A stretch of DNA of 61,438 bases from a bacterium. GTDB taxonomy: Bacteria; B130-G9. The stretch's first letter is position 1, and every line of letters starts with the position of its first letter. The stretch is from the NCBI GenBank assembly GCA_021160245.1, contig JAGHCW010000202.1, forward strand, positions 1 to 61,438, in the 5' to 3' direction. Shown here one piece after another: positions 1 through 11,102 of this stretch. Position numbers and translations under genes: made by a program. The notes under the pieces are model-generated. The model did not search any database, had not been told where the DNA came from, and saw only the letters and a list, made by a program, of their open reading frames with translations.

Positions 1-823
1 CACCAACTTTTGAGGATTGCACGGAGTCTCTCTCCTGTTTGACATACGCTGCTTTGCGGAATCCAAGAACATTCCAGTCCACCTTGTGGCCATCAAAAAA
101 CGGGCCGTCAACGCAGGCGAACTTCGTCTCACCGCCCACCTCGACGCGACAGCAACCGCACATGCCGGTCGCATCGACGATTATCGGACTCAGATCGACG
201 CGAGTCTTGACGCCGGCCGGCCTTGTTGCCTCGCAAACGAGTTTTAGCATAAAGGTGCAACCGATCGCGATCACCTGATCAAGCTGCTCTCCTTTTTCTA
301 TCAACATCCTGATGACGTCCGGGGCAAAGCCCTTCAGCCCGCGCGAGGCATCACCTGTGGCGATTATAACTTCATCCGAGTTTCTCTTGAGCTCTTTTTC
401 CAAGTACAGGAGGTATTTGGACCTCGCCTCGATAATTGAGACAACTCGGTTGCCTGCTTTCTTGAAGGCTTTCGTGAGCGGCAGTATCGCCGCAATACCA
501 AAGCAGCCACCGGCAAGAACAACCGTTCCGAAGTTCTTTATCTCCGGAGGGATGCCCAAGGGACCCACAACTGAATACAGAGTGTCGCCTTTTTTGCGGC
601 TGACCAGCTTGCCGCTGGACCGGCCGACTTCGTTGACGACGAAAGTTATTGTCCCCGTCTTCTTATCCCAATCGGAAAGCGTATAGGGCACACGCTCGGA
701 ACGCTCATCAACCATGATGACAATAAACTGCCCCGCCCGCGCCTTGTTGGCAATTGCGGGGGCAAGAACCTTGACCAGATTCGTGTTTGGCGCGGTCTCA
801 GTCTTCTCGACAATGCTATACAT
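1..823 (-). CDS. NfnA / PyrK-like FAD-NAD(P)-2Fe-2S flavoprotein (partial, 3' end off window)
   Basis: About 274 codons are visible and the frame runs off the left edge, which is near the usual full length of NfnA-like (ferredoxin-NADP reductase alpha, dihydroorotate dehydrogenase electron-transfer) proteins. The N-terminus is the FAD-binding barrel of the family (RVPYTLSDWD, then VGRSSGKLV). The nucleotide-binding half begins VVLAGGCFGIAA. Near the C-terminus are ATGMCGCCRVEV and FACVDGPFFDGHKVDW, the Cys cluster that binds a [2Fe-2S] centre in this family. The start ATG overlaps the stop of the NuoG-like gene by 8 bases, so the two are translationally coupled. Inference: it passes electrons between NAD(P)H and the NuoEFG-like complex or ferredoxin. 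The family call is firm; the physiological partner is inferred from the operon. Confidence 0.85.
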   Translation of the reverse strand, partial: MYSIVEKTETAPNTNLVKVLAPAIANKARAGQFIVIMVDERSERVPYTLSDWDKKTGTITFVVNEVGRSSGKLVSRKKGDTLYSVVGPLGIPPEIKNFGTVVLAGGCFGIAAILPLTKAFKKAGNRVVSIIEARSKYLLYLEKELKRNSDEVIIATGDASRGLKGFAPDVIRMLIEKGEQLDQVIAIGCTFMLKLVCEATRPAGVKTRVDLSPIIVDATGMCGCCRVEVGGETKFACVDGPFFDGHKVDWNVLGFRKAAYVKQERDSVQSSKVG

Positions 824-3296
824 TTTCGTCCCCGATGATCTTCTCAATTCTCACGGCGGCGCTGTTAGTCAGAAAACTAGCCTGCTCTTTGCCTAGTAGA
901 GCTAGAAGCCGTGGATCTTTGGCCGTCATTCTTGAGACCAAGAGGTCTGGCGGAACGAATTCGTCCACCCGCACAGTGAGTCGTGCTACACCTTTCCCAG
1001 ATACGACGTCAACCTCTTCATCGTTCTTCACATTCAAATACTCGGCCATACTCGGCGATAGCCTCACAAACTCGCTCATACACAAAGAGCGAATTCCACC
1101 CACCAGCTTGCTCAGCCTATGTCCATGCAACAGAAATGAATTGTGCCGGTTCACCAGCAGAAGAGGCCATTCGTTTGAACGTTTCACCTCATCACGCGAC
1201 AAGCCGGGCGCGAGCGGTTGCTCGGATAAGCTAGAGTCCATCTCGGGGCGGTCTTGACCATCAGGGCACTGTTCACGCCCATTTTCGGCTATGCTATTGA
1301 GCTCAGAGTCGCGGGCGCCCAGGGCTTTTGCCAGCATAGACATTATCTCGCACTCAGGTTTCGATTGGCCCCTTGGGCTGACCGCGCGGCGGAGCTCGTG
1401 CAGCGTGCCATCAACGGCGGTGAAGGCGCCTTCCTTCTCCGTGAATGCTGCCGCCGGCAAAACAACATCCGCAAACGGCGTATATGACCCGTCATAGCTG
1501 TCGATAACTGTAAGAAAGTCCAAATCCTGAAGTGGATTCGGCCATTCCGGGCTTAATCTAGGCACCAGGTCCCCGATCATCACAAGCGCTTTTACGCGCT
1601 TCGCCTCAATATCCTGCATTATCTTAAGCCAGTGCGCGTCGAAGTCCTTGGTGGACCTTGTGAAGCATACCTCACAGCGCTTTGTGTCCGAACTCAGCAA
1701 ATCGCAAAGGTCCGAAAGAAGTCCCTTGAAGTGTTTATGAGCGTTCTCGGCGCCAACCTCGCGGCCCACAACAACCAGCGTCGATGAGGCCTCACGGAGC
1801 ACGTCTGCGGCTTGCTGCAAAGTCTCCTTGTCCGTTCCGACATGCGAGAGAATCTCCTCAAACAAGAGCTTGAAGGCCCACTTCGGCAAATGCTTAACTC
1901 GTCTGCGACTCTTCATGTCCTTCTCAATCACCGCCCAAATCAAGCTGGCAACCGCCCAGGAGAAATCGCCGGGCGTTACGGGCATCTTTGCCGAGGCGAA
2001 CTTGTCAAGGAACGTCGGAACTGTATCCAAAACCAGCAGCTTCGCGCCTCTATCCACAGCTCGCTTGACGTTATGACCAAGAATTGGATGTGTCTGGACA
2101 AGATCGGCGCCGATGAGTAGCACACAATCACCCTCTGACAAAGACCCGAGACTCGCGTCAAATGAGCCCCATTCCTTGGGCGGGACGCGGTGTGGATAGT
2201 TCTCAGTTCTAAGAACTGAAGCGGCAAAACCTCGACATGCGTTCGCCTCCTCATCGGTCAGCAATCCTGGATATAGCAACGCTATTTCGGACCCTTCGAA
2301 TCTTGAGATGCCTTCTGCAGCCTGTGCTAACGCCTTGTCCCAGCTCGTCGTGATCAGCTGGCCGACCTTCCGGACAAGTGGTTTGGTAATACGGTTACTA
2401 GAATTGATGAGCTCTGCCACGCCAAATCTGCCTAATACACAGACTTGACCGCCATTGACGCCGCCGGCTTGCGATGCTTGTGTGCTTACTACCCTGTTGT
2501 TTGACGCCGAGACCTCTATGCTGCACCCGACCGTGCAGAGTGTGCAGGTGGTCTCGACCGTCTTATCGGCCGGAGGTTCCCATTTGCTCGTGCGGTCAGC
2601 AAGCGCGCCCGTCGGACATGCATCAACACACGCCCCGCAGAACCGGCAACCCATATCCAAATGTAGATGATTAAATGCCGTGCCGACTCTCGTTTTTGGG
2701 CCTCGATTTGCGAAAGCAAGCGTGTAAACCCCACGCACCTCTTGACAGGCACGAACGCATCGCCCACATAAAACGCAGAGGTTGTAGTCCCGGTCGAAGA
2801 AGGGATCGAGCCTCTCCAGAGGAAGGTCCTTATACAGAGGTTCGAGCCTGACGTGGTCCAAACCGATCTTATCAACCAGCTCGCGCAGCTCGCACTTCTC
2901 TTTGTTTGGGCAGAGCATACATCCGGTGACCCGTCCGGCCTTCGTCAGATGTCCGGGACCCCGGAAGTCCTCGCATTGCTGTTGCCGACTGCAGAATAGA
3001 CAGCCGGTTGGATGCTCGGATAATATGAGCTCAAGAACCACTCGGCGATGCGCCTTCACGCTCTCAGTATTCGTTCGGACGACCATGCCATCGGAAGCAG
3101 GTGTGATGCACGAGGCAGGAAAGCCCCGCATACCCTCAACCTCGACTATGCACAACCTGCAGGCGCCGTAGGAAGATAGCCCTTCCTTGTGGCAAAGCGT
3201 CGGCACATCGATCCCGAGCGACCTTATCGCCGAAAGTAGGCTGGTTCCCTCTTCAACCTCAACCTCAATCCCATCAATCGTCAGATTGGGCGCCAC
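816..3296 (-). CDS. NuoG-like iron-sulphur / molybdopterin-fold subunit
   Basis: About 826 residues from a GTG start. I chose GTG because a strong ribosome site (AAGGAG) lies just upstream, whereas the longer frame would begin inside the nuoF-like gene. Order of domains: N-terminal [2Fe-2S] ferredoxin fold (Cys35, 46, 49, 63); a NuoG-type His-Cys3 site (HPTGCLFC...C) and an extra Cys pair (GCMLCPNKEKC); two [4Fe-4S] ferredoxin motifs (CVLCGRCVRAC, CRFCGACVDAC); a further four-Cys site (CTLCTVGC then C in GGQVCVLG); then a molybdopterin-oxidoreductase fold with its C-terminal dinucleotide-binding domain. I see no Cys or Sec in the position used by formate dehydrogenases, so it resembles NuoG more than FdhA. 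It probably acts as the electron-wiring subunit of a soluble NAD(H)-linked complex with its neighbours. Confidence 0.85.
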   Translation of the reverse strand: MAPNLTIDGIEVEVEEGTSLLSAIRSLGIDVPTLCHKEGLSSYGACRLCIVEVEGMRGFPASCITPASDGMVVRTNTESVKAHRRVVLELILSEHPTGCLFCSRQQQCEDFRGPGHLTKAGRVTGCMLCPNKEKCELRELVDKIGLDHVRLEPLYKDLPLERLDPFFDRDYNLCVLCGRCVRACQEVRGVYTLAFANRGPKTRVGTAFNHLHLDMGCRFCGACVDACPTGALADRTSKWEPPADKTVETTCTLCTVGCSIEVSASNNRVVSTQASQAGGVNGGQVCVLGRFGVAELINSSNRITKPLVRKVGQLITTSWDKALAQAAEGISRFEGSEIALLYPGLLTDEEANACRGFAASVLRTENYPHRVPPKEWGSFDASLGSLSEGDCVLLIGADLVQTHPILGHNVKRAVDRGAKLLVLDTVPTFLDKFASAKMPVTPGDFSWAVASLIWAVIEKDMKSRRRVKHLPKWAFKLLFEEILSHVGTDKETLQQAADVLREASSTLVVVGREVGAENAHKHFKGLLSDLCDLLSSDTKRCEVCFTRSTKDFDAHWLKIMQDIEAKRVKALVMIGDLVPRLSPEWPNPLQDLDFLTVIDSYDGSYTPFADVVLPAAAFTEKEGAFTAVDGTLHELRRAVSPRGQSKPECEIMSMLAKALGARDSELNSIAENGREQCPDGQDRPEMDSSLSEQPLAPGLSRDEVKRSNEWPLLLVNRHNSFLLHGHRLSKLVGGIRSLCMSEFVRLSPSMAEYLNVKNDEEVDVVSGKGVARLTVRVDEFVPPDLLVSRMTAKDPRLLALLGKEQASFLTNSAAVRIEKIIGDENV

Positions 3297-3307
3297 ATCT
3301 CTCCTTC

Positions 3308-5101
3308 CTAGACAACATGGATAGCTCCAAATTTGCACGCCTCAACGCAAGCGCCGCACCTGATGCACTTTTTGGTATTGATCTTGTGAACCTGTTTCTT
3401 CATTCCCGACACGGCTTCAGTCGGACAGACCCTGAGGCACGCTCCGCAACCTACGCATTTGTCCTTGAGAATGCTATATGTTATGAGTTTCCGGCAGAAT
3501 CCAGCTGGGCATCGATGCTCCTTAATATGGGCGTCGTACTCATCCCGAAAGTATTTTATTGTTGATAGCACAGGATTGGCTGAAGTCTGCCCAAGACCAC
3601 ACATGGACGTCTTTTTTATCACCCCACCGAGCTCCTCAAGAATCTCTACATCCCCCTCCTTGCCCTTGCCCTCGCAGATGCGGCTAAGTATCTCACGCAT
3701 ACGCTGAAGACCTATCCGGCAGCTGGAGCATTTGCCGCAAGATTCCTCTGCAAGAAAGTCTGTAAAATACCGGGCCATGTCAACCATGCACGTCCCCTCG
3801 TCCATCACGACTAAGCCGCCCGAACCCATCATAGAACCCACGCTCCCAAGACTCTCAAAGTCGATTGGCATGTCCATGAGAGAAGCCGGCAAGCAGCCTC
3901 CCGAAGGGCCACCGATCTGGACGGCCTTGAACTCCCGGTTGTCAAGTATGCCCCCGCCGATCTCAAAGATGATCTCCTTGACGCTTATGCCCATTGGGAC
4001 CTCTACAAGGCCGGTGTTGTTGACCTTCCCAACCAGCGAGAAGAGCTTGGTCCCCTTGCTACGCTCCGTGCCAATCCCAGAGAACCAATCCCCACCTTTC
4101 AGGATGATCTGAGCCACATTGGCCCAAGTCTCCACGTTGTTTATATTCGTCGGTTTGCCCCAAAGACCACTCTGCGCTGGAAATGGGGGTTTGGGTCTTG
4201 GTCTTCCCACCTTCCCCTCAATGGAACTAATCAGCGCCGTTTCCTCGCCGCAAACAAACGCCCCAGCGCCTCGAACGATGGTGAGGTGGAAGTTTAGACC
4301 GGTACCCAATATGTTTTCCCCAAGAAGCCCATTCTCCTCGGCCTGATTGATGGCCTTCTTGATGCGCTCAAGCGCAAGAGGGTATTCCGCCCTAACATAG
4401 ACTACCCCATGCTCGGCGCCGATTGCCTTGCCTCCGATGGCCATTCCCTCAATGAGCGCGTGCGGATCGGCCTCGAGAATACTCCTGTCCATGAACGCTC
4501 CGGGGTCGCCCTCATCTGCGTTGCAGATAACGTATTTCGGTGTATCCGCCTGGGCCTTGCATATCTCCCATTTCTTGAATGTAGGAAAACCGGCGCCGCC
4601 TCGACCCCTAAGTCCAGATGTCTTGAGCTCCTCGATTACTTGCTCCGGACTCATCTCTGTCGCGGCTTTTGCAAGCCCCAAATACCCATCAAACGCAATG
4701 TAATCCTTGATATCCTCGGGATTGATGCGCCCCCTATTGCGAAAGGCGATGAGTTTCTGGCGTCCAAAGAAATTGATGTCCTTCATTGCCGGGACTGGCG
4801 TTTCCTCACCGGGCGGAACGAACATTAGTCGAGGCACAGGACGACCCTTGAGGCAATGCTCCTCAACTAAAAACGGGATATCCTCGACCCTAATACGCTG
4901 ATAGAGGATGTCCTCGGGCTGAAAAAGAAGCAGCGGCCCATTCTGACAGAACCCATTGCAGCCCGTCGGAACCACGAGAATCTCTTCCTGCAATTCGTGC
5001 AGCTTGAGCTCTTTGTTCAACGCGGAGATGATCTCAAAGGCGCCCGCCGACACACAGCCCGTTCCTGTGCATACTAGAATGTGTGTTCTCTCTGCCTTCA
5101 A
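3308..5101 (-). CDS. NuoF / HydB-like NADH-binding flavoprotein with extra Fe-S domains
   Basis: 597 residues, the long HydB/NADP-reducing-hydrogenase form rather than plain NuoF. It starts with a thioredoxin-like [2Fe-2S] domain (CTGTGC, later TGCNGFC). The core carries the NADH and FMN sites (GLRGRGGAGFPTFKKW, CNADEGDPGAFMDR, GAGAFVCGEETALI). The 4Fe-4S N3-type motif is ESCGKCSSCRIGLQRM with a later Cys in SMCGLGQ. At the C-terminus are two ferredoxin clusters (CVGCGACLRVC, CIRCGACVEAC). Family knowledge: this subunit oxidises or reduces NAD(H), and the extended form occurs in electron-bifurcating complexes. It sits 11 bases before the NuoG-like start. A sister of hydrogenase HydB is equally possible, but no canonical catalytic HydA is present in the window. 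Confidence 0.9.
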   Translation of the reverse strand: MKAERTHILVCTGTGCVSAGAFEIISALNKELKLHELQEEILVVPTGCNGFCQNGPLLLFQPEDILYQRIRVEDIPFLVEEHCLKGRPVPRLMFVPPGEETPVPAMKDINFFGRQKLIAFRNRGRINPEDIKDYIAFDGYLGLAKAATEMSPEQVIEELKTSGLRGRGGAGFPTFKKWEICKAQADTPKYVICNADEGDPGAFMDRSILEADPHALIEGMAIGGKAIGAEHGVVYVRAEYPLALERIKKAINQAEENGLLGENILGTGLNFHLTIVRGAGAFVCGEETALISSIEGKVGRPRPKPPFPAQSGLWGKPTNINNVETWANVAQIILKGGDWFSGIGTERSKGTKLFSLVGKVNNTGLVEVPMGISVKEIIFEIGGGILDNREFKAVQIGGPSGGCLPASLMDMPIDFESLGSVGSMMGSGGLVVMDEGTCMVDMARYFTDFLAEESCGKCSSCRIGLQRMREILSRICEGKGKEGDVEILEELGGVIKKTSMCGLGQTSANPVLSTIKYFRDEYDAHIKEHRCPAGFCRKLITYSILKDKCVGCGACLRVCPTEAVSGMKKQVHKINTKKCIRCGACVEACKFGAIHVV

Positions 5102-5179
5102 TGCTCTCTTCCTCGGATATGTATCAAACTCACACGAATCGCTAGTGGGATAGTATCGCCTTCCTTTAATCCAAAACGT

Positions 5180-5734
5180 TTAACCCAATTTGCCCATACT
5201 AGGCAAGTCAGTTACCTCATCAAGCATTTCCCGAACCAATCGGACCGTTCGAGTATCACTGGTCAAGGCGGAACCTGTCAACCTTTTGACCTCCCTTGTG
5301 TCGAAAGTAAACGCCCGCTCGCACGTTCTATGCTCGTAAATAATATCGACCTCTGGCGCTCCAAAAACAAGTGACAATAAAGTGGACTTCATGTCCCCGA
5401 GAGGCATCCTGTCAACGCTGCTGAGCGCAAAGCTCGCAACGACAACGGTCCCCTCTCCAAGAACCGAATCAATGCTGAACTCCCCGCCCGCATCCTCGGC
5501 CGCCTGAGCAAGAAGCGAGAGCCCCAAACCAACCTTCTTGTTCGCCTTCGTCGTAACGAATGGATCAACGACACGGCTGAGCATCTCTTTTGTCATCGCC
5601 TTGCCATTATCCGCTATCGAGATGGTCAGCAGGTCACTCTCAAAGTCCTCTGCGATCAGTATCTTAATTAGCGTCGCATCGGCTGCCACTGAATTTTGGA
5701 CTATATCAAGAACGTGCATCGAGAGCTCAAGCAT
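5180..5734 (-). CDS. HATPase-domain protein (histidine-kinase-like ATPase), second copy in operon
   Basis: 184 residues with a GHKL ATP-binding fold. The N-box region reads LDIVQNSVAADAT, the G1 box is SIADNGKAM, and the glycine-rich lid is KKVGLGLSLLAQAAE. There is no receiver, dimerisation or His-phosphoacceptor domain, so it is a stand-alone ATPase of the kind found in [FeFe]-hydrogenase operons rather than a complete kinase. The C-terminal third shows no recognisable domain. It lies between the PHP gene (11 bases upstream) and the NuoF-like gene (78 bases downstream). Inference: an anti-sigma-like or kinase-like regulator of the redox operon. Its substrate is unknown. Confidence 0.75.
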   Translation of the reverse strand: MLELSMHVLDIVQNSVAADATLIKILIAEDFESDLLTISIADNGKAMTKEMLSRVVDPFVTTKANKKVGLGLSLLAQAAEDAGGEFSIDSVLGEGTVVVASFALSSVDRMPLGDMKSTLLSLVFGAPEVDIIYEHRTCERAFTFDTREVKRLTGSALTSDTRTVRLVREMLDEVTDLPSMGKLG

Positions 5735-5745
5735 CTCATTGAAGC

Positions 5746-6471
5746 TCAGTTAATGAGCTGTCTCCCTTCAACGCCTCTTAAGGCCATCCTAATCTCGGCT
5801 AGAGTCGGCGCCTCGACCACAAGCTCGTTGCTGAACTTGCCAATGTCTTCTTTGAAATGGGCGTCAGAATCACGAAGGACAGGGAAATCAAGAGTGCAAC
5901 CGAACCTATCCCTAACCTCCTTCAAAGTTGTCTTGCTGGTCAATTCGACGGCGTCGAGCTCAAGCGACTCTGGCATGAAACCAAGCTGATACAAAAGGCC
6001 GAATCGCTCTCGCTCTATATGAGCCGCAACGGCCAAGCCTCCTAACTTGTGAACGGCCGCTACGACTTGGTCAACTGACATATCTGTGGCGCCGATCAGA
6101 AGCCTCTCATTCTCCGAAACTACATAATCAAACTGGTCAACCGCGAACTGATACCCGAATAGCTTCTCATCGTTCTGGCCGGATATCAGGTGTTCGTAAA
6201 CGACCTGTTGAACTTCAAGCGCCGACTTACATGTCTCGAATATCCCAAGAACGTGAACCTCCTCTGCGCTCGTTATCTCAATGCCCGGAAGCACAGATAG
6301 CGGAAGAGATTCGGCTGCGGCAACCGCTGCCTCAACGTTCTCCGCAGAATTATGATCGCTGATGGCGATCAGGCCGAGGCCGCGTTTAAGGGCCGCCTCA
6401 ACAATCGTTTTCGGCGTCATAGTGTCATCGGCACAAGGTGAAAGACAAGTATGCACATGAAAGTCGGCCAT
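5746..6471 (-). CDS. PHP-domain phosphoesterase
   Basis: About 241 residues from the ATG giving MADFHVHTCLSP. Earlier in-frame starts would overlap the DRTGG gene. The metal-binding PHP signature is clear: DFHVHT at the start, then ISDHNSAENV, and AAHIERERFG and DSDAHFKED further on, supplying the His/Asp ligands. Family knowledge: PHP proteins are metal-dependent phosphoesterases, and this short form recurs next to DRTGG and HydS-like genes. The actual substrate is not known; a nucleotide signal degraded in response to redox state is only a guess. The start lies 5 bases after the upstream stop, consistent with co-translation. Confidence 0.8.
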   Translation of the reverse strand: MADFHVHTCLSPCADDTMTPKTIVEAALKRGLGLIAISDHNSAENVEAAVAAAESLPLSVLPGIEITSAEEVHVLGIFETCKSALEVQQVVYEHLISGQNDEKLFGYQFAVDQFDYVVSENERLLIGATDMSVDQVVAAVHKLGGLAVAAHIERERFGLLYQLGFMPESLELDAVELTSKTTLKEVRDRFGCTLDFPVLRDSDAHFKEDIGKFSNELVVEAPTLAEIRMALRGVEGRQLIN

Positions 6472-6476
6472 AAGCC

Positions 6477-6827
6477 TCAGCATTCCTTTTGGCACCGTAG
6501 TCCTGAGCCGTAAAGCCTGCCGGCGACCTCGTATGCCGAGAGCTTCGTCGTAAATATCGGTATCTTGTGCTCATTGGCCTTCTCGAGCGTCTCAGGCTGC
6601 GGCCTTCGGCCATTGACCACAATAACTCCACCCAACGCCAAGAACTCGGATACAGCGGCTATGTTGGGGTGGATGTGGATGGTTATCCACAAGTAGCCCT
6701 CTTTTGAATTGGCCATAACGTCGCTGAGAATGTCGCTGACATAGCAGCCTGTAACCTCGCAATCAAGAGAGCAGTTTGTTGTACACATCTCAAGCTCAAG
6801 CGCATCAGCTATCTGTGAGAGTCTCAT
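6477..6827 (-). CDS. DRTGG-domain protein, second copy in operon
   Basis: 116 residues, starting MRLSQIADALELE. The body matches the DRTGG fold, a small alpha/beta domain usually fused to CBS or phosphotransacetylase proteins: GCYVSDILSDVMANSKEG, then GGVIVVNGRRPQPETLEKA and IPIFTTKLSAYEVAGRLY. It is a clear paralogue of the gene at 8585-8938, sharing the pattern (S)D(L/I)MSDV...GxIVVxGxRPxxET. Cysteines at the N-terminus (CTTNCSLDC) are absent from the other copy. Family knowledge: DRTGG domains are thought to sense small ligands, with no fixed activity. Both copies sit beside HATPase and HydS genes, suggesting a signalling module. Confidence 0.75.
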   Translation of the reverse strand: MRLSQIADALELEMCTTNCSLDCEVTGCYVSDILSDVMANSKEGYLWITIHIHPNIAAVSEFLALGGVIVVNGRRPQPETLEKANEHKIPIFTTKLSAYEVAGRLYGSGLRCQKEC

Positions 6828-6855
6828 CGCCCTTTACATGCCTCCTCTTTTTGCC

Positions 6856-8124
6856 TCACTCACTGCGTCCGTCTGCCCTTATGAATACACAATCCTCGAT
6901 CTTGGCGTGCCCCCGGACGATGTCGTCGGCGAGAGTCATGCAGTCAGGCGCCCCGCACGCCGCGCAGTTTTTACCGGGCAGCTTTCGGAATATATCTTCC
7001 CTAAGCCGCATCTTGCCAATCGCAAATGAAGTATCTGCATCAAGGGGAGGAATCGCGGCCGGAAGAATCGCCTTTGAAAGGCGAAAATGCTCTCGCTCAT
7101 GTCCGCCGGCCTTCATCATATCCTCAATATCCGGCCTGGCGCCGAACAGCTTCACAAACTCGGTGATTGTGTTGCTGGCTATGAAACGGTTCTGGACGGT
7201 GAGCGGCCCGCCTATGCAGCCACCGGGACATATCTGGCACTCCAGATACTTGATATGTCTGAGCTTGCCTCTTTCGAGGTCTTTCAGAATCTTAATCGTA
7301 TCCATAACGCCAGAGACGGCGAGAGTCTCCTCTATTCCCAAATCCGCCACCTCTCCGCCAGCCCGCCCGAACCCAATCCCGGCCCCGGATGAGTGGTGCA
7401 TTGACCTGGCCTTCCTATCGCTCTTGGCTTGTTTCAAGGCCACAAGCATAGATCCATAGACCTCCGAGATGCCGACCGCTCCGTCAAGAGAAGACCTCTC
7501 CGCTGTGGGGGGATTGATCATCGCCGCAAGCTTGGCCAAGCAGGGAGTGATGTGGATTACGCCGATCTCATCCTCCGGGATATTAAGTCTTCCGGTCACA
7601 TCCGCCTTGATGGCCTTGGCCGCAACCTCTCTGGGTGGCCGGAATGGCAAAATCTGTCCAGTGAGGGCTGGGAACATGAGCTGTATTAGGCGTGTAACCG
7701 CCGGACATACGGGCGAGATAAAGGGCTCCCCAGCGTAATTCTCCTCTATGTAGCTCTTAACGTCTGCAAAAACAAGTTCACAGGCGTACGCTTTGTCATA
7801 AGCCAAATCGAAGCCAAGTGAGAGAAGGGCCTGGAGGACATCCTCGGGCAGCGTGCTCGGCCCAAATTGCGAGTAAAGGGCCGGGGAAGGAAGGGCAACC
7901 TTATACTTGAACGTGCTTACGTCTGTGTGGGTTGTGGTGACCGGCACGATCGCACGTTGCGGGCAAACACGGTAGCACTCTCCGCAATCAATGCACCTTT
8001 CAGGAAGAACCTGCGCTACATTGTCTCTGACGCGTATTGCCTTCGCGGGGCAAGCCCTCGTGCACTCAACACAACCGGTGCACCGGGCTGGGTCAACTCT
8101 CAGCGCATGGTCGGGAATCCTCAC
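6856..8124 (-). CDS. HydS-like [FeFe]-hydrogenase homologue with ferredoxin and Fes domains
   Basis: 422 residues from a GTG start. N-terminus: two ferredoxin [4Fe-4S] motifs (CTGCVECTRAC, CIDCGECYRVC). The centre is the iron-hydrogenase large-subunit fold. All four H-cluster ligand positions are kept: Cys140 (SPVCPAV), Cys195 (HITPCLAK), Cys299 and Cys303 (CPGGCIGG). The residue before Cys140, normally the proton-relay Cys of TSCCP, is Val139. The C-terminus carries a third Fe-S domain (NCAACGAPDC with a later Cys412), the Fes domain typical of the putatively sensory hydrogenase group. Its start lies inside the end of the upstream HATPase gene (32-base overlap). Likely role: a hydrogen or redox sensor acting with the DRTGG, HATPase and PHP proteins rather than a fast catalyst. 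No maturation genes are in the window. Confidence 0.85.
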   Translation of the reverse strand: MRIPDHALRVDPARCTGCVECTRACPAKAIRVRDNVAQVLPERCIDCGECYRVCPQRAIVPVTTTHTDVSTFKYKVALPSPALYSQFGPSTLPEDVLQALLSLGFDLAYDKAYACELVFADVKSYIEENYAGEPFISPVCPAVTRLIQLMFPALTGQILPFRPPREVAAKAIKADVTGRLNIPEDEIGVIHITPCLAKLAAMINPPTAERSSLDGAVGISEVYGSMLVALKQAKSDRKARSMHHSSGAGIGFGRAGGEVADLGIEETLAVSGVMDTIKILKDLERGKLRHIKYLECQICPGGCIGGPLTVQNRFIASNTITEFVKLFGARPDIEDMMKAGGHEREHFRLSKAILPAAIPPLDADTSFAIGKMRLREDIFRKLPGKNCAACGAPDCMTLADDIVRGHAKIEDCVFIRADGRSE

Positions 8125-8569
8125 ATCTCACCTCACCATGATTGGCCTTAATCACAATCTCAACTCTAGTTCCCTCGCCTAAGGTAGAGCTTATCTTCAT
8201 CTCATCGCTGTTCTTCTTGATGTTTGGAAGACCCATACCGGCGCCGAATCCCATTTCCCGAATCTCGTCCGTAGCTGTCGAATATCCATCCCGCATCGCC
8301 AATTCGATGTCAGGGATACCTTGGCCTCGGTCCGCAACGACTATTACTATCCGATCTGGCGTGACTGTCAGCTCGAGACCGCCATCATCAGCGTACATCA
8401 CGATGTTCATCTCCGCCTCATAAGCTGCTATGCCGGCGCGCCGCACTATGCTCGGGGGAAATGCCAGTTCTTTGAGTATCTCAAGTATCCTGCACGACGC
8501 CTCGCCCCCTCTTACGAAGTCGCCGCCTTCTACTTCAAATCCCTGATTGAAAACGGTCTCGGCTATCAT
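8093..8569 (-). CDS. RsbW-like anti-sigma-type HATPase, first copy in operon
   Basis: 158 residues with a GHKL ATPase fold of the serine/threonine anti-sigma kind. The N-box is RRAGIAAYEAEMNIVMYA, the G1 motif VVADRGQGIPDI, and the G2 lid FGAGMGLPNIKKNSDE. Family knowledge: RsbW/SpoIIAB proteins phosphorylate an anti-anti-sigma partner, but no such partner gene is adjacent. Position between a DRTGG gene and the HydS-like gene, with a 32-base overlap into the latter, points to a joint signalling role. The copy at 5180-5734 is more divergent. Confidence 0.8.
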   Translation of the reverse strand: MIAETVFNQGFEVEGGDFVRGGEASCRILEILKELAFPPSIVRRAGIAAYEAEMNIVMYADDGGLELTVTPDRIVIVVADRGQGIPDIELAMRDGYSTATDEIREMGFGAGMGLPNIKKNSDEMKISSTLGEGTRVEIVIKANHGEVRCEDSRPCAES

Positions 8570-8584
8570 TCCTAGGGCCCCAGA

Positions 8585-8938
8585 TTATTCAGTATGAGTC
8601 CCCGCAAGCCCAATCTTCGCCAACTCCGAGCACAGCTCAAACATGTGCATAGATGTGCTCAGAAGTGGGATATGCATCTTCTCTGCGAGCTCGATAGTCT
8701 CCGCGTTGGGTCGCTTGCCCCGAACAACAATTATCCCCGAAAGGTCCGCTATCTGTGCGGTCCGAATAATCTGCGCGTTAGTAAGCCCTGTTACCAGCAG
8801 TATCCCGGGCTTAGCAAAGGCCAAAACATCGCTCATAAGGTCGCACGCGCTGACAGTCACAACCTCCCGATCCGGGAGGCACTGCGCTCCGGCAAGCACC
8901 TCGACCTCGACAGCTTCAATTATGTCCTTTAAGCGCAT
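8585..8938 (-). CDS. DRTGG-domain protein, first copy in operon
   Basis: 117 residues beginning MRLKDIIEAVEVEVLAG. The DRTGG core is visible as SACDLMSDVLAFAKPGILLV, then GIIVVRGKRPNAETIELA and IPLLSTSMHMFELCSELA. It is homologous along its whole length to the second copy (6477-6827). It lies 15 bases downstream of the NuoE-like stop. Family knowledge gives ligand-sensing as the general role. What it senses is not evident. Confidence 0.8.
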   Translation of the reverse strand: MRLKDIIEAVEVEVLAGAQCLPDREVVTVSACDLMSDVLAFAKPGILLVTGLTNAQIIRTAQIADLSGIIVVRGKRPNAETIELAEKMHIPLLSTSMHMFELCSELAKIGLAGTHTE

Positions 8939-8953
8939 TTGACCTTCTTCTAA

Positions 8954-9400
8954 TTATTCGGACGGCTCTTTGGGCAGAGCATCGTCTAGGGAGTTGATTG
9001 TCATGCGTCCATGGTATTTGCCATCAACGACGATTACCGGAGCAAGCGCACACGCGCCCAGACAATTCACTGATTCAACCTGATATTCGCTTCTCAGCCA
9101 CTCAGATGCCTCAAATCTCCGCTCGATCTCCGCAAATATCTTCGGGGCGCCCCTGACATGGCACGCAGTCCCCAGACAGACGCAGACTTCCCGCTTTTTG
9201 GGCGTGAGGCTGAATGATTGAAAGAACGTTGCTGTGGAGTAAACCTCAGATAGCGAGATATTGAGCCGCTGAGCTACTCTCCGGAGAGCGTCCTCAGGCA
9301 AGTGCCTGTATTCGGACTGAATGTCCTGAAGAATCGCGATTAGCGATGATTTGCTGCTTCCATAACTCTCAATGATCTCATCAACCTCTCGTGCGCTCAT
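8954..9400 (-). CDS. NuoE / HydC-like [2Fe-2S] thioredoxin-fold subunit
   Basis: 148 residues, the first gene of the redox operon. It has the usual two-part layout: a helical N-terminal region (LQDIQSEYRHLPEDALRRVA) and a thioredoxin-like [2Fe-2S] domain with ligands Cys75, Cys80 (CLGTAC), Cys113 and Cys117 (CLGAC). Length and motif spacing match the 24-kDa NuoE/HydC subunit. It pairs with the NuoF-like protein to bind NAD(H)-derived electrons. The ribosome site GAGGAG lies upstream. A promoter must lie in the following gap, but I cannot fix one with confidence. Confidence 0.9.
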   Translation of the reverse strand: MSAREVDEIIESYGSSKSSLIAILQDIQSEYRHLPEDALRRVAQRLNISLSEVYSTATFFQSFSLTPKKREVCVCLGTACHVRGAPKIFAEIERRFEASEWLRSEYQVESVNCLGACALAPVIVVDGKYHGRMTINSLDDALPKEPSE

Positions 9401-9872: not shown

Positions 9873-11102
9873 ATGATACTCAAGGAACCGATACTCGTGG
9901 GCCTAACGCAGCTTTCGGCGAACAAGCTGCGGTCGTTTCTGACTATGCTTGGGATTCTGATCGGCGTTGGCTCCGTAGTAGGCATCGTCTCGATCTCCGA
10001 CGGCGCACGGGAGATGCTGCGCACGGAGATGGACAAGATCGGCGGCAGCAACTTGATGTGGATATCTCCGCCTCATCGCTGGGTGAAGCGCGACGGAAGA
10101 TGGCAGAGGCGCAAGTATGACGCCTATTTGGACAACAAGGATGTCCAGCGCATCAGAAATTGCAGCGAGCACATCAAGGACATCCAGCCGGTTGTGAATG
10201 TGTCTGGCAACGCGACCCACAGGCGGAATACGTCAAGCTGTCAGATACGCGGAACGTCGCCGGAGGCTCTACGGGCTATGGACTGGAAACCAACGAGCGG
10301 CCGGTTCTTCTCCGAGCGGGACTACGCCTCGTGGAGAAAGGTCTGCGTGATTGGCAATGAAGTTTACGACGACCTGTTTCCCAACGGTGAGGATGCAATC
10401 GGCAAGGATATAGAGCTTGCAGGAGTTCGCTTTGTGGTTGTCGGCGTTATGGAGGAGAAGAGAGTTTTCGGCGATAATTGGGGCTACAGGGTTATGATGC
10501 CTTCCACAACAGCCCAGCACAGAATGCGCGGCACCGATAGAATCAATTTCATGCTCGTTCATGTCGATTCCAGTCTCAACGTCAAGAAGGTCGAGCGCAA
10601 GATCACATCCCTGTTGAAGCGAACAAAACTCCATGGCGAGGAATACCGCGTCCAGAGCGCACAGACGGAAATAGCCAAAGTTGAGGAAGCTTTGTCGGTC
10701 GCAAAGCTCATAACGGGGGGGATAGCTGCCATTTCGCTGATTGTGGGTGGCGTCGGCATCATGAACATAATGCTCGTCTCGGTTGCGGAGCGCACACGAG
10801 AGATTGGCCTGCGAAAGGCCGTCGGAGCGCAGAATACGCACATCTTCTTTCAGTTCCTAATCGAGGCGATAATTCTCTGCATTCTCGGGTGCATCGTGGG
10901 GATTGGCGTCGGCTTTGCTCTTGGAATGGGCATCGCGGCGGGCATATCAAAAGCGGCTGACATGGAGTTCATCAGCATAATATCTGCAAAGGCTATGCTT
11001 CTCGCCGTGGCTTATTCGGTTGCCATCGGCTTAATAGCGGGCGTTTTACCGGCCATCAGGGCATCGAGGCTCAATCCAGTCGAGGCGCTTCGCTACGAGT
11101 AA
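9873..11102 (+). CDS. MacB/FtsX-type ABC transporter permease (orphan)
   Basis: 409 residues with the MacB layout. One N-terminal membrane segment (MLGILIGVGSVVGIVSI) is followed by a large extracytoplasmic domain. Three C-terminal membrane segments follow, starting with GGIAAISLIVGGVGIMNIML and the conserved ERTREIGLRKAVGA loop, and the protein ends PAIRASRLNPVEALRYE. Family knowledge: such permeases work with an ATPase and often a membrane-fusion protein to move lipoproteins, peptides or drugs across the envelope. No ABC ATPase gene occurs anywhere in this window, so its partner must be encoded elsewhere. The start is supported by GAAGGA just upstream. Substrate cannot be told. Confidence 0.85.
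   Translation: MILKEPILVGLTQLSANKLRSFLTMLGILIGVGSVVGIVSISDGAREMLRTEMDKIGGSNLMWISPPHRWVKRDGRWQRRKYDAYLDNKDVQRIRNCSEHIKDIQPVVNVSGNATHRRNTSSCQIRGTSPEALRAMDWKPTSGRFFSERDYASWRKVCVIGNEVYDDLFPNGEDAIGKDIELAGVRFVVVGVMEEKRVFGDNWGYRVMMPSTTAQHRMRGTDRINFMLVHVDSSLNVKKVERKITSLLKRTKLHGEEYRVQSAQTEIAKVEEALSVAKLITGGIAAISLIVGGVGIMNIMLVSVAERTREIGLRKAVGAQNTHIFFQFLIEAIILCILGCIVGIGVGFALGMGIAAGISKAADMEFISIISAKAMLLAVAYSVAIGLIAGVLPAIRASRLNPVEALRYE

Follow-up and report, generated by a model that had tools for sequence, protein, structure and literature searches.

A Coatesbacteria operon that may encode a multi-subunit BfuABC-NfnAB transhydrogenase with a group D sensory cassette

The DNA analysed here (the window) is an entire contig of 61,438 bp (C130) from a Coatesbacteria genome of 3.43 Mb in 244 contigs. 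Ten genes lie on its minus strand between positions 9400 and 1, all in one direction as the initial annotation had described, with gaps of no more than 78 bp or slight overlaps (Table 1). Read leftwards, they are bfuC, a DRTGG gene, a HATPase gene, a HydS-like gene, a second DRTGG gene, a PHP gene, a second HATPase gene, bfuB, bfuA and nfnA; a divergent gene starts at 9873, beyond bfuC, and at the other end the operon runs off the contig edge, which cuts nfnA. Domains were assigned by Pfam and NCBIfam profile searches. We think it rather probable, from the sequence, that the products of the operon are a single soluble complex for electron bifurcation, BfuABC-NfnAB, and a sensory cassette that accompanies it. 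The gene set is no product of chance, because both the six-gene cassette and the order bfuC-bfuB-bfuA-nfnA-nfnB recur in relatives and far away. The relatives in the host's family are three genomes (G001, G002 and G003), and the closest named one in the searched collection is the metagenome-assembled genome (MAG) Candidatus Coatesbacteria Zod_Metabat.233 (G002:C200).

Table 1. Features of the operon, in the order of transcription, with the nfnB gene found elsewhere in the same genome
Feature	Position	Strand	Basis or remark
bfuC (NuoE/HydC-like, 148 aa, one [2Fe-2S])	8954..9400	-	PF01257 126.6 bits; C-x4-C...C-x3-C
DRTGG protein 1 (117 aa)	8585..8938	-	PF07085 36.4 bits, cut-off 25.2; adjoins HydS in relatives also
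HATPase 1 (158 aa)	8093..8569	-	PF02518 39.2 bits
HydS-like, putative sensory [FeFe] hydrogenase (422 aa)	6856..8124	-	PF02906 83.9 bits, PF04060 48.4 bits
DRTGG protein 2 (116 aa)	6477..6827	-	PF07085 22.2 bits, just below cut-off; position conserved
PHP-domain phosphoesterase (249 aa)	5746..6495	-	PF02811 36.7 bits
HATPase 2 (184 aa)	5180..5734	-	PF02518 50.4 bits
bfuB (NuoF-type, 597 aa)	3308..5101	-	828.7 bits to 7t2r_B; cluster Cys kept
bfuA (NuoG-like, ~840 aa)	816..3338	-	TIGR01973 286 bits, sub-cut-off; PDB matches; motifs
Duplicated CxxCx5C segment, BfuA residues 113-149	2892..3002	-	Found in NfnAB-linked BfuA
nfnA (274 aa from ATG at 823, C-terminus cut by contig edge)	2..823	-	NF004862
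nfnA NAD-site signature stretch (C107, E132, C189)	257..505	-	ATG numbering
Contig edge	1..1	-	nfnB expected beyond, outside window
nfnB on contig C16	L003 1495-2892	-	Outside window, same genome

The catalytic core is best recognised in BfuB, which aligns with HydB of a bifurcating NiFe hydrogenase (7t2r_B) across residues 4-595 at 828.7 bits, compared with 393 bits for Nqo1 of complex I. Its layout comprises an N-terminal [2Fe-2S] site, a domain for flavin mononucleotide (FMN) and NAD, the NuoF [4Fe-4S] site, Zn-site cysteines and two C-terminal [4Fe-4S] sites (Pfam Complex1_51K, NADH_4Fe-4S, Fer4 and 2Fe-2S_thioredx), and the cluster cysteines are kept at the N-terminal, NuoF and both C-terminal sites. 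The Bfu family is defined by its bifurcating core, and non-bifurcating relatives such as NuoF do not have the extra iron-sulphur (FeS) clusters B2-B5 (PMC9304861). The window BfuB has the FMN domain and the sites for B2-B5, BfuC has one [2Fe-2S] site with four cysteines, and BfuA has conserved cysteines for FeS clusters feeding the core. The initial annotation had proposed a soluble NAD(H)/ferredoxin bifurcating complex; the full FeS set of BfuB largely bears this out, and what changes is the assignment, to the Bfu family with NfnAB and with NADP(H) probably as third substrate. Two observations on BfuB variants may be recorded here. At three other loci (L113 6567-9719, L076 12182-15274 and L119 6888-10067) BfuB is 1030-1059 residues long, and its C-terminal ferredoxin domain is replaced by one that resembles NfnB/GltD. 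In G002, the bfuB adjoining bfuA (L024 4053-6265) is a different copy with 53% identity and no C-terminal ferredoxin-type domain; a second bfuC precedes this divergent bfuB, and another bfuC remains upstream of the cassette.

BfuA comprises a [2Fe-2S] site, a His/Cys-ligated [4Fe-4S] site, an extra CxxCx5C segment, two further [4Fe-4S] sites and an Fe4S4-Mop-like domain (Pfam Fer2_4, NADH-G_4Fe-4S_3, Fer4_Nqo3 and Molybdop_Fe4S4). Pfam gave no match to the H-cluster domain Fe_hyd_lg_C, which confirms that a NuoG-like protein stands in the place of HydA and leads us to reject a HydABC hydrogenase. Its top PDB score is to formate dehydrogenase (Fdh) alpha chains (245 bits, against 220.7 for an Nfn-Bfu type chain), and the NuoG model TIGR01973 also matches, both of which would fit an NADH dehydrogenase module of the formate or complex I type whose partners have been lost. 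We consider this extremely improbable. The window BfuA does not have the catalytic Cys/Sec-His (RLCH) motif, so that an active Fdh-Bfu enzyme was rejected, and no membrane-arm genes are adjacent. In a phylogenetic tree, NfnA-linked BfuA stands apart from the group of Fdh-type, StnC, SfrA and E. coli NuoG proteins, with a support of 99 in the SH-like approximate likelihood ratio test (SH-aLRT), E. coli NuoG being a long branch and the one complex I reference. A grouping with ordinary complex I, the outcome that would have spoken against the initial proposal, is thus not what the tree gives, and complex I NuoEFG was rejected on this placement and the missing membrane arm. BfuA carries no GltD domain, for which the StnC-like proteins at L065-L067 offer a comparison.

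The contig edge falls close to the end of nfnA. The window protein stops at SSKVG whilst that of G002 ends in SSKMGVKQ*, so that few bases are missing. In all three family relatives nfnB follows nfnA directly, and in the host genome a canonical nfnB occurs once, at the open right end of contig C16, with no nfnA partner beside it. The next gene after the window nfnA is therefore almost certainly nfnB. The join of C130 to C16 is made because of the gene order in relatives; direct sequence overlap between the two contig ends was sought and not found. A catalytic HydA or FdhA further left, which would have refuted the proposal of the initial annotation, was looked for on the joined contig and is absent: the gene after nfnB is a convergent glutamate dehydrogenase (L003 1-978). 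Glutamate dehydrogenase also lies near nfn or bfu genes at L061 1267-2559, L062 336-1631, L116 6482-7786, L205 13793-15121 and L220 10753-12087, and its recurrence in several unrelated lineages hints at a metabolic link.

The association of nfnAB with bfuA extends well beyond this family. Eighty loci were retrieved with BfuA as the only query; they represent archaea and many phyla of bacteria, and a few of them repeat genomes already sampled. Most of these loci show the order C-B-A-NfnA-NfnB, and 57 linked nfnA genes were found among them. This order occurs in Chloroflexi, Zixibacteria, Latescibacterota, Bacteroidales, WOR-3, Desulfobacterota, Ammonifex, Thermoplasmatota, Thorarchaeota and others, and a search of the sampled genomes that carry a linked nfnA found a single NfnA-family match. 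Fusion proteins with NfnA attached to the BfuA C-terminus come from at least three lineages (G259, G209, the Lokiarchaeota MAG L229 and the Syntrophaceae MAGs L233 and L236). The host NfnB on C16 and its relatives keep the ligands for two [4Fe-4S] clusters (eight cysteines) and the bifurcating-site arginine of the YGIPEFR motif. A split version of StnABC was considered and rejected, since this NfnB shares 64% identity with the canonical NfnB of fused NfnAB and 41% with the GltD part of StnC; the NuoG domains of StnC are also placed elsewhere in the tree than linked BfuA.

These data bear on the possibility that one transcript serves two separate enzymes, NfnAB as a transhydrogenase of the usual kind and BfuABC as a complex with some other third substrate. 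Standalone nfnAB genes are common, the sensory cassette also occurs beside fused standalone NfnAB (L063 and L064), and a search for positions in NfnB that distinguish linked from standalone proteins found none. Against this, BfuA-NfnA fusions are present in several lineages, and the extra CxxCx5C segment was seen in 15/15 BfuA proteins with an adjacent nfnB and in 0 of the Fdh-type BfuA proteins examined; it sits where StnC carries its GltD insertion. The sequence of NfnA, considered below, also tracks its linkage to BfuA. On balance we regard two separate enzymes as unlikely.

The nfnA gene overlaps bfuA by 8 bp and scores 347.7 bits against the NfnA/PRK06222 model NF004862 (cut-off 220). An AlphaFold model of the protein (predicted local distance difference test score, pLDDT, 89.9) is nearest to P. 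furiosus NfnI-S (5jca_S, TM-score 0.94). The NAD(H) site itself is not intact. In the FNR superfamily the motifs GGGxGxAP, GxR and IGPxxM surround the nicotinamide beside the flavin; the window protein has C107, E132 and C189 in this site (115, 140 and 197 when counted from the TTG at 847). Linked NfnA proteins have Cys/Glu/Cys at these three positions where standalone proteins have Gly/Gly/Pro. Across 116 NfnA sequences we counted 70 with Cys/Glu/Cys, one with Cys/Asp/Cys and 45 with Gly/x/Pro; no mixed triad was seen. Replacements were absent from standalone NfnA (0/30), whilst three linked proteins (L116, L191 and L201) retain Gly/Gly/Pro, and the NfnA proteins lacking the triad lie to the same side of a branch in the tree (SH-aLRT 97).

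One explanation is that this site no longer serves NAD(H), with C107, C189 and E132 forming a redox-active dithiol or metal site near the flavin that might serve a non-NAD(P)+ acceptor such as a disulphide, a polysulphide or a protein partner. The perfect covariation of two cysteines and an acidic residue (71 sequences with, 45 without) is consistent with such a role, and P. furiosus Xfn sets a precedent for a changed pocket in an NfnA-type subunit (5vj7_B alignment); an unknown acceptor has been suggested for this NfnII/Xfn type (PMC7483475). However, acidic residues placed where this strand ends can favour NAD(H) as well, and we consider the loss of NAD(H) chemistry quite improbable. A bolder arrangement, which we think doubtful, is a double machine in which a flavin-bifurcating NfnAB docks on the FMN/FeS-bifurcating BfuABC, while the NAD(H) site of NfnA, converted to a Cys-Cys-Glu site beside the flavin, would act as a switch, a relay or a new catalytic centre and let the cell redirect electrons between two bifurcation sites.

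The six genes between bfuC and bfuB form the sensory cassette. Group D (M2e) putative sensory [FeFe] hydrogenases are characterised by four H-cluster cysteines, loss of C299 (CpI numbering), Ser or Thr in place of M353, a Cx2Cx4Cx16C motif and the lack of a PAS domain (PMC8163306). The HydS-like protein matches this group in sequence: judged from an alignment of 22 homologues and the host's own HydA, it keeps the H-cluster cysteines (C140, C195, C299 and C303), has Val for C299 (CpI) and Thr for M353 (CpI), and carries two [4Fe-4S] sites, an H-domain and a C-terminal Cx2Cx4Cx16C (C387, C390, C395 and C412), with no Pfam match to PAS. HydS-like proteins at two other loci (L070 9217-10551 and L077 9540-10808) are missing the cysteine equivalent to window C299 and may carry no H-cluster. 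Among the remaining cassette proteins, the two DRTGG proteins are homologous, and HATPase 1 is nearest to kinases of the anti-sigma F factor type (TIGR01925, 46.4 bits, below the cut-off).

Close HydS homologues occur in about 36 of the 386 genomes sampled. We examined 34 neighbourhoods. In about 20 of them bfuB or bfuC lies beside the cassette, including five with HydA, three with StnC-like fusions and at least three with BfuABC-NfnAB; two more lie beside fused nfnAB (L063 and L064), two beside GltD/Hdr-like genes, and about ten have no such neighbour. Because of these counts we regard the cassette as a companion of bifurcating enzymes generally and not only of hydrogenases, so its description in the initial annotation as a hydrogenase-type module is weakened. 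The idea that the duplicated genes represent two sensing arms is also weakened, since the cassette normally contains a pair of DRTGG genes and a pair of HATPase genes. If the cassette accompanies transhydrogenases too, the signal it reads may be the general redox state, or H2 may tune the NAD(P)H/ferredoxin balance.

The host has related enzymes elsewhere in its genome. A hydA gene on contig C147 (L030 2401-6053) is accompanied by a short NuoF (396 residues) without extra FeS domains; this pair resembles the non-bifurcating NADH-dependent [FeFe] hydrogenases, and a HydG-like radical SAM gene adjoins it. A GltD fusion (L004, G000:C139, 1363-3675; 770-794 residues) has C-terminal FeS motifs and is followed by an Hdr/Mvh-like gene.

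From the gene content, gene order, fusions, ligand conservation and sequence signatures we infer complex formation, the substrate, the electron path and its control. The best reading is that BfuABC-NfnAB is a multi-subunit Nfn-Bfu transhydrogenase, distinct from the fused StnABC, with NADP(H) as its third substrate. NADP(H) would bind NfnB at the canonical site that is kept there, and NADPH would donate electrons to NfnB. Exchange with the NuoG-like BfuA would follow, probably through the extra Cys-rich segment, and the FeS chain of BfuA would conduct electrons to the BfuBC core. There they would be split or merged between NAD(H) at the BfuB FMN and ferredoxin (Fd) at the C-terminal BfuB clusters, giving a predicted net reaction of 2 NADPH + NAD+ + 2 Fd(ox) <-> 2 NADP+ + NADH + 2 Fd(red) + H+. 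Joint reduction of NAD+ and ferredoxin from NADPH has been shown for StnABC (PMC10482914) and T. sibiricus Nfn-Bfu (PMC9304861). NfnA would bridge BfuA and NfnB, and the changes in its NAD(H) pocket make it probable that it is a relay or serves a different partner. Control of the complex would fall to the cassette, in which the group D HydS and the DRTGG, HATPase and PHP proteins probably signal H2 or the redox state of ferredoxin.

Several points weigh against this scheme. The gene order may have been conserved for co-regulation alone. NfnB looks able to bifurcate on its own, and two bifurcation sites in series would be thermodynamically awkward. Some linked BfuA proteins keep the Fdh-type RLCH motif (L159, L161, L205, L214, L219 and L220), so the third substrate may differ from NADP(H) in some of these systems. 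In Methanothrix, bfuA-nfnA stands without adjacent bfuBC, and nfnB is on the opposite strand. The link to nfnB in the host spans a contig gap, and the bfuB next to bfuA in G002 is the copy without a ferredoxin domain.

If BfuABC-NfnAB is indeed one complex, the Bfu family has a widespread branch, reaching from Coatesbacteria and Chloroflexi to Thorarchaeota and Thermoplasmatota, that has gone unnoticed so far. It would unite Nfn and Bfu, the bifurcation modules that have been studied best, while keeping them as separate subunits, and would offer a direct test of how two bifurcation sites can share electrons; Cys/Glu/Cys in NfnA and the extra CxxCx5C in BfuA would then be a sequence signature by which to recognise the class. 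The core is of a known kind, and an arrangement in which NfnA and NfnB are subunits of their own is apparently undescribed: in the open-licence literature we found no description of nuoEFG with nfnAB, nor of DRTGG genes with a hydrogenase.

The nearest known systems are StnABC and the Nfn-Bfu Type 1 enzymes, which likewise combine a BfuBC core, a NuoG-like domain without an active Fdh site and an NADPH module of the NfnB/GltD type (PMC7483475, PMC10482914, PMC9304861). In StnABC, however, the GltD/NfnB module lies inside the NuoG-like subunit, as an insertion at the point where the window BfuA has only a short extra Cys segment, whereas the window system has a separate, canonical NfnB. StnABC also has no NfnA, which here is coupled to bfuA, and the NuoG domains of the StnC type group on the Fdh side of the tree. 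Kremp et al. listed StnC candidates of 890-898 residues (31-33% identity) in Ammonifex, Dehalobacter and others; these may belong to the present type, because an Ammonifex MAG (L161) has bfuA (915 residues), nfnA and nfnB as separate genes. Canonical NfnAB shares the NfnA fold and an NfnB with all ligands, and differs in having Gly/Gly/Pro in NfnA and in that its genes are not coupled or fused to bfuA. P. furiosus NfnII/Xfn (5vj7) is alike in having an NfnA-type subunit with an altered NAD site, although the substitutions are others and there are no Bfu subunits. NiFe-HydABCSL of Acetomicrobium mobile (Type 3 Bfu) has a nearly collinear BfuB and similarly uses extra subunits to supply the third substrate, these being the NiFe subunits SL rather than NfnAB. 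For the cassette, the group D (M2e) protein TamHydS shows the same domain layout, active-site changes, HATPase neighbour and adjoining Bfu-type operon (PMC8163306); it is attached to HydABC and has an AraC regulator as neighbour, where the window has a transhydrogenase-type Bfu with DRTGG and PHP proteins.

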